NCBI RefSeq assembly: GCF_017313265.1
Contig: NZ_JAFLQZ010000020.1
Location: forward strand, 1 to 64,000
Reading direction: 5' to 3'
Length of the DNA stretch: 64,000 nt
Source: Hymenobacter telluris
GTDB lineage: Bacteria; Bacteroidota; Bacteroidia; Cytophagales; Hymenobacteraceae
Position numbers and translations under genes: made by a program. Below, one piece after another: positions 59,231-61,944 of the stretch; the stretch's first letter is position 1; each line of letters starts with the position of its first letter. The notes beneath the pieces are model-generated. The model ran no database searches. It was not told the origin of the DNA and worked only from the letters and a program-made list of their open reading frames with translations.

Positions 59231-60547
<1,317 letters not shown>

Positions 60548-60688: not shown

Positions 60689-61381
60689 ATGGCCCTCGGA
60701 GTAGCCCTCACCACGCAGCCCATGACCAGCCACGACGACCTGAATCCTCAGGAGCTGAAGCTAAAGGGGGTTAAGGCGTATCAGGTTGATACGGCCGCCG
60801 GCCCGAGCCATGCGTACCGCCGCCGCGACTTTTACAAGGTGGCGCTTGTCACCAGTCCTTGCACCGTCCATTATGCAGACCGTAGCATTGGCATTAGTGG
60901 CCCCAGCCTCATGTTTGCCAACCCACACATTCCTTACTCCGTGGAGTTGCACGACCCGCGGCTGACAGGATACGCGTGCTTGTTCACGGAGGCATTTATG
61001 AAAGAAAACGACCGGTCGGAAAGTCTGCAACAGTCGCCGCTGTTCAAAGTCGGCGGTACGCCCATCTTTCATCTGAGCGCGGAGCAGGCTGCTTATGCCA
61101 AGAGTATCTTCCAGAAGATTCTGACCGAGCAGAATACCGAGTATCTCTACAAGGGCGACTTGATTCGTACGTACCTGCAATTGCTTATCCACGAGGCGCT
61201 TCGCATGCAGCCCACCGAGAGCTTCGTGCAGCACAAAAACGCTTCGTCGCGCATTACCGCCCTGTTTTTGGAGCTGCTGGAACGGCTGTTTCCGGTGGAG
61301 AGCCCCGACCAAGCCATGCTTTCCGCGACGCAGCCTTTGCCTGCAACAAGCGGGTCCCTGGCTCCGGCTGCCCTGCCTTGA
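60689..61381 (+). pseudogene. AraC family regulator lacking its DNA-binding domain
   Basis: The first about 200 residues match the ligand-binding part of a Bacteroidota AraC-type regulator (DLNPQELKLKGVKAYQVD, SIGISGPSLMFANPHIPYSV, SSRITALFLELLERLFPVESPDQ). In such proteins the helix-turn-helix domain follows directly. Here the sequence changes at about 61313-61320 into a FAD-subunit gene in another frame. The reading frame adds some 20 unrelated residues (ending PLPATSGSLAPAALP) and stops. The start may be 60689 or 60722. It cannot bind DNA as an AraC protein. A deletion is the simplest explanation. Confidence 0.8.
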
Positions 61382-61944
61382 AAGGCGACAATCACAACCT
61401 GGCTATTCTCGGGGTGAGCGACAGCTGCATTGCCAATTCCTACCCCGGCGACTTGTCGGTGGCTTTGGCTGCCTTTGATGCGGTGCTTACGCTTGAAAAG
61501 GGGAAGGGCAAGCAGCGGCAGGTACCTCTCACCGATTTCTACCTGCTCCCTGGCAGTACGCCCCACAGGGAAACGGTGCTCGAACCCGGTGAGTTGATTG
61601 TGGCCGTTACCATTCCCACTGCCGCGCACGCCCAGCGCTCCACTTACTTGAAAGTGTGTGAGCGTAGCAGCTACGCCTACGCCCTGGCCTCCGCTGCGGT
61701 GGGGCTGGACGTGCAGAGTGGCACCATCCGTTCGGCCCGGGTGGCGCTAGGTGGGGTAGGGGCCCAGCCTTGGCGCAGCAGGGAAGCAGAAAAGGCGCTG
61801 ACTGGCCAGCCGGCTACGGAAACTACTTTCCGGGTGGCCGCTGCTGCCGCCTTGCAGGGCGCGCAGCCCCGTGAGCACAACCGCTATAAAGTGGAGCTGG
61901 CACAAAACACCCTCGTGCGTGCCTTGCAGCAGGTCACGGCGTAA
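61318..61944 (+). pseudogene. 5'-truncated molybdenum hydroxylase FAD subunit (YagS)
   Basis: This is the C-terminal two thirds of a YagS-type subunit. It enters at FRDAAFACNKRVPGSGCPALKG, which matches residues from about 121 onward of the intact paralog at 23264-24301. It continues through LKVCERSSYAYALASAAVGL and ARVALGGVGAQPW to a normal end. The about 120-residue FAD-binding N-terminus and any start codon are absent. The open frame entering from upstream is the antisense-quality third frame of the AraC fragment. No Fe-S subunit gene precedes it, so the gap probably also removed that gene. Confidence 0.82.

Follow-up and report, generated by a model that had tools for sequence, protein, structure and literature searches.

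An AraC-family regulator gene fused to a partial FAD-subunit gene in a Hymenobacter genome is most likely a fresh deletion pseudogene

The window, a stretch of 64,000 nucleotides, is part of a 95-kb contig (C12) of the Hymenobacter genome G000, which comprises 6.02 Mb in 47 contigs and is 100% complete with 0.07% contamination. Near the end of the window, two truncated genes lie between two intact ones, all on the same strand (Table 1). The upstream intact gene encodes an aldo/keto reductase, for which DkgA was the best NCBIfam model, with a score under its cut-off. The downstream one encodes a molybdenum-binding large subunit, in which all three Pfam domains, Ald_Xan_dh_C, MoCoBD_1 and MoCoBD_2, are present and for which PaoC was the best NCBIfam model, also with a score under its cut-off. 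The original prediction, made from the letters of the window, had described this large subunit as intact, and so we found it.

Table 1. Genes, gene remnants and the junction between them at the end of the window.
Feature	Position	Strand	Details and evidence
Aldo/keto reductase gene (DkgA-like), intact	59696..60547	+	Pfam Aldo_ket_red 1.9e-51
AraC-family regulator gene, 5' part, ligand-binding half	60689..61319	+	210/~302 codons; Pfam AraC_binding
Out-of-frame AraC tail through YagS DNA	61320..61381	+	20 codons, stop TGA 61379-61381
Deletion junction	break between 61319 and 61321	.	both sides compared with 11 relatives; 0-1 bp shared
YagS/PaoB FAD-subunit gene, 3' part, codon 121 to stop	61321..61944	+	~84-91% protein identity to intact relatives
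YagR/PaoC molybdenum subunit gene, intact, 782 aa	61979..64327 (327 bp past window end)	+	Pfam, sequence

The open frame of the regulator (60689-61381) contains AraC_binding as its sole AraC Pfam domain. In tblastn and blastn comparisons, its homology to relatives ended at codon 210, although chance matches can shift this end by a few bases. The C-terminal helix-turn-helix DNA-binding domain is absent, with about 90 C-terminal codons gone, and the remnant would be unable to bind DNA. The loss of this domain had been predicted correctly, but its position, given as about 61313, has to be moved to 61319. The FAD-subunit piece is read in a different frame, in which an open frame spans 61315-61944 and ends with TAA at 61942-61944. 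As had been predicted, it begins at codon 121: the first residue kept in the alignments is F121, and position 61320 is ambiguous. It contains the CO_deh_flav_C domain and, of FAD_binding_5, just the final third (profile positions 113-169 of 170). The AGGT and TIGGN FAD-binding motifs, which belong to the deleted codons 1-120, and the conserved RTRC cysteine are missing, as judged partly by alignment to the solved PaoB-type subunit 5Y6Q, and the YagS remnant is thus predicted to be unable to bind FAD. The TGA stop of the AraC frame overlaps a TTG of the YagS frame (61378-61380), giving TTGA. This is a possible reinitiation point for a YagS fragment of about 188 aa, and probably a coincidence.

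The arrangement from which these pieces derive was recognizable in 11 related Hymenobacter loci, those of H. edaphi, H. polaris, H. sp. HSC-4F20, H. perfusus, H. sp. CA1UV-4, H. guriensis, H. jeongseonensis and four further species. Their gene order is AraC-YagT-YagS-YagR, and both stumps of the window are in register with it. The AraC and YagS sides are 1,367-1,748 bp apart in these loci, and the intervening segment holds the remaining ~88-112 AraC codons with the DNA-binding domain, a complete PaoA/YagT Fe-S subunit gene, whose product carries a twin-arginine motif (SRRSFMK or the like), and the first 120 codons of YagS. As this gap contains exactly the parts missing from the window, one deletion accounts for all of the losses, which bears out the original proposal of a single event behind the missing AraC C-terminus, YagS N-terminus and Fe-S subunit gene, and of the ancestral order. 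Moreover, over 10 species have a single syntenic locus whose two sides match the two halves at ~77-91% protein identity, which excludes chance. We also looked for a conserved YagT promoter that would have been lost with the deleted segment, but the 230 bp upstream of YagT could not be aligned among the relatives, and a search with a Bacteroidota-type promoter pattern gave no matches.

The locus of the relatives matches PaoABC (YagTSR) of E. coli (5G5G) and the aldehyde oxidase 5Y6Q in its three subunits and in their order. These two are its best structural relatives by sequence, and the Fe-S subunit of the Hymenobacter relatives likewise bears a Tat motif. In contrast to PaoABC, the window lacks PaoA and codons 1-120 of PaoB. 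Additionally, the PaoA- and PaoC-like subunits of the relatives score under the NCBIfam cut-offs, so that the exact substrate is not assured.

The aldo/keto reductase gene is the normal upstream neighbour of the AraC gene and was seen next to it in most relatives. In H. jeollabukensis (L031) and H. rubidus (L036), the reductase gene and a full-length AraC gene are kept, and YagTSR is not in the flank. As the pair persists without YagTSR in these two relatives, the regulator may belong with the reductase, and may act for it no less than for the oxidase. By analogy, an AraC-type regulator adjoining a DkgA-like aldo/keto reductase resembles the YqhC-DkgA pair of E. coli, which responds to aldehydes (PMC8262776). 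However, the regulator in the window lacks a DNA-binding domain, and the likeness is one of gene neighbourhood that does not imply orthology to YqhC.

At the base level, the relatives read ...CAGGCCATG/C(C)GCTGAAA on the AraC side, with the slash marking the break, and the window reads ...CAAGCCATGC/TTTCCGCGAC. Around the join itself, the window has GCCATGC/T/TTCCGCGAC, the AraC genes of relatives mostly have GCCATGCCGCTG, and their YagS genes have TGCGGCTACTTCCGCGAC. Thus, compared with the consensus of relatives, the two sides appear to have at most 1 bp in common at the join, with slightly more possible in the direct ancestor. Close to the two breaks there is an imperfect direct repeat (CGGCTGTTTCCG in AraC, CGGCTACTTCCG in YagS), which we considered as a route to the deletion. 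It was rejected, since its register is off by ~35 bp at the AraC break and recombination between such copies would yield a different product.

The sequence at the junction also bears on the alternative that the organism has the 1.5 kb and the assembly dropped it, as in a faulty join or a chimeric contig, which had been named from the start as the main competitor. The junction is known from a single genome, and the undecayed stumps are what a dropped segment would leave, although a very recent deletion would look alike. Graph assemblers, however, need shared k-mers, whereas no more than 1 bp is common to both sides here; there is no N run, and the contig end is more than 30 kb away. When the missing segment was searched for elsewhere in G000, both as protein and as DNA, only paralogues of at most 78-79% identity were found, and none of the other contigs carries it. 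The near-absence of shared sequence, together with the lack of the segment elsewhere in the assembly, makes a misassembly by repeat collapse unlikely. The completeness and low contamination of the assembly, and the comparable deletion and small lesions at the same locus in independently assembled genomes of relatives (see below), also speak against an artefact, which we consider improbable. A shared arrangement in relatives had been named as grounds for giving up the idea of a deletion, and the junction was found in no other genome among the 120 Hymenobacter genomes searched, G000 included.

The preferred explanation, which we hold to be very probable, is a single recent deletion that turned the locus into what is most likely a fresh pseudogene, with the loss buffered by paralogues. 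A deletion of about 1.5 kb, judged by the spacing in relatives, would have hit an AKR-AraC-PaoABC (YagTSR) aldehyde-detoxification locus in this lineage. The left break is in AraC codon 211 and the right break at YagS codon 120/121. The stumps would have been joined out of frame with nearly no shared sequence, in the manner of end-joining-type illegitimate recombination. Other deletion pseudogenes formed by illegitimate recombination likewise consist of truncated, frame-shifted stumps beside a clean deletion whose two sides have few bases or none in common, and no new mechanism is seen here. We regard the case as ordinary and well resolved, a deletion pseudogene with loss of function. A fresh deletion, rather than a new gene design, accounts for the odd fusion, and any short 'AraC regulator' or short 'FAD subunit' that automated annotation gives at this place should be treated as a remnant.

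The age of the deletion was judged from replacements unique to G000 at columns invariant among the other species. There were 2 in 107 such columns of the AraC stump (F9V and A127T of the aligned segment), 3 in 114 of the YagS stump (P7A, R113C and A168T), and 9 in 393 of YagR. Ten other species had on average 1.2 unique replacements in the AraC part and 1.2 in the YagS part, and from 0 to 19 in YagR; these averages were made by hand and leave out H. jeongseonensis and the divergent locus of G106. Over both stumps, the 221 invariant codons hold 5 such replacements, versus ~2.4 expected. Mean omega between G000 and relatives was 0.050 for AraC, 0.076 for YagS and 0.108 for YagR, below the values of the other species. 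Relaxed selection was thus not detected in the AraC and YagS stumps, either by omega or by unique replacements in comparison with intact relatives. By hand estimate, the upper limit is ~8 excess changes in ~500 nonsynonymous sites, or ~0.016 per site. The synonymous divergence of the lineage from G050, the closest species compared, is ~0.22, taken as half of the dS of 0.437 of a neighbouring gene; the dS of the locus itself is near saturation. From these values, also by hand, the deletion would have occurred within the final several per cent of the branch, if the stumps evolve neutrally. The lack of decay beyond that of intact relatives indicates that the deletion is young, in line with the suggestion of the original prediction that the event may be recent.

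The genome has other genes of this type. A complete paralogous PaoABC set lies on contig C11, with identities of 78% for YagT, 67% for YagS and 70% for YagR, and is followed by XdhC-like and nucleotidyltransferase-like genes, named from sequence alone. Three further sets, on C44, on C42 and on C12 at ~21-25 kb, match more weakly; the last of these, within the window, is more distant (YagS 50%). The likeliest substitute partners of the orphan YagR would therefore be those of the C11 set rather than of the set at ~21-25 kb, which amends the suggestion of the original prediction that partners might come from the other locus. Additionally, weak matches to Fe-S- and FAD-subunit-like sequences were found within one open frame of 1,567 aa (G000:C16:31513-33240, minus strand), possibly a single-chain xanthine dehydrogenase-like protein.

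What the deletion would mean for the enzyme can be judged from E. coli, in which the Tat signal is on PaoA only, PaoB and PaoC are exported along with PaoA, and the lack of any subunit blocks the export of the others (PMC4273604). In the window, the gene of the Tat-signalled 2x[2Fe-2S] subunit is deleted, and its nearest copy is the one on C11. With PaoA gone and PaoB stripped of its FAD-binding motifs, the local enzyme should not assemble or be exported alone. Without its own Tat-bearing Fe-S partner, YagR would be neither assembled nor exported unless PaoA and PaoB were borrowed from C11. By this analogy, the oxidase of this locus should either be dead or rely on the C11 paralogues.

Such reliance is the core of a different reading, in which the rearrangement is maintained: YagR, now in the AraC transcription unit, would work with PaoA and PaoB of C11, and the AraC or YagS remnants would keep a role, the YagS piece perhaps being translated by reinitiation at the TTGA. 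The completeness of YagR and its lack of excess change, the existence of a complete paralogous set and the low omega of the stumps are all consistent with it. However, recency fully explains the low omega, the YagR and YagS proteins of the two sets are only 70% and 67% identical, the YagS remnant has lost its FAD-binding motifs, and the junction is conserved in no relative. We regard this reading as very improbable.

The deletion in G000 is not the only lesion of the locus. In Hymenobacter sp. BT190 (G085:C8, L037 6001-7538), AraC codon 122 is joined to YagR codon 386 by a deletion of ~3.65 kb in G082 coordinates, with no more than ~1 bp shared at the join, and at sites that are otherwise invariant the YagR remnant is changed, for instance by G522R and G647I. 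As this deletion spans that of G000, it could in principle enlarge an older one, but the little diverged stumps of G000 argue against a shared old event. In H. jeongseonensis BT683 (L034 7828-11040), YagS has lost 162 bp in frame and a further 11 bp with a shift of the frame, and YagR has gained 1 bp in a run of A; this is a third, different inactivation of the locus. Finally, G050 is collinear with the window from 11.3 to 25.4 kb and resumes at 64.4 kb; comparison of G050:C10:86000-105000 (L113) with window positions 25359-64421 showed that ~39 kb, including the whole locus, is absent there. Since G085 and G000 have the adjacency of YagR and the 64.4-kb position in common, it is simpler to assume a loss in G050.

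At least one YagS-type gene was found at E <= 1e-60 in 117 of the 120 genomes, and nearly all copies listed were uninterrupted. Redundancy is a sufficient explanation for the repeated loss. That the separate losses within one clade come about because paralogous sets can lend Fe-S/Tat and FAD subunits to the orphan YagR, with a chimeric enzyme outliving the deletion, seems very improbable to us. At the genus level, the locus offers a small natural series of separate losses of one aldehyde oxidase with paralogous back-up, and this series could be used to test subunit sharing between PaoABC-type enzymes. A literature search for aldehyde-oxidase pseudogenes in Hymenobacter found no matching paper. 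A milder change was seen in G084 (L052 4971-5492), where the YagS homologue has a 93-bp in-frame deletion and its frame is still open, encoding 296 aa.
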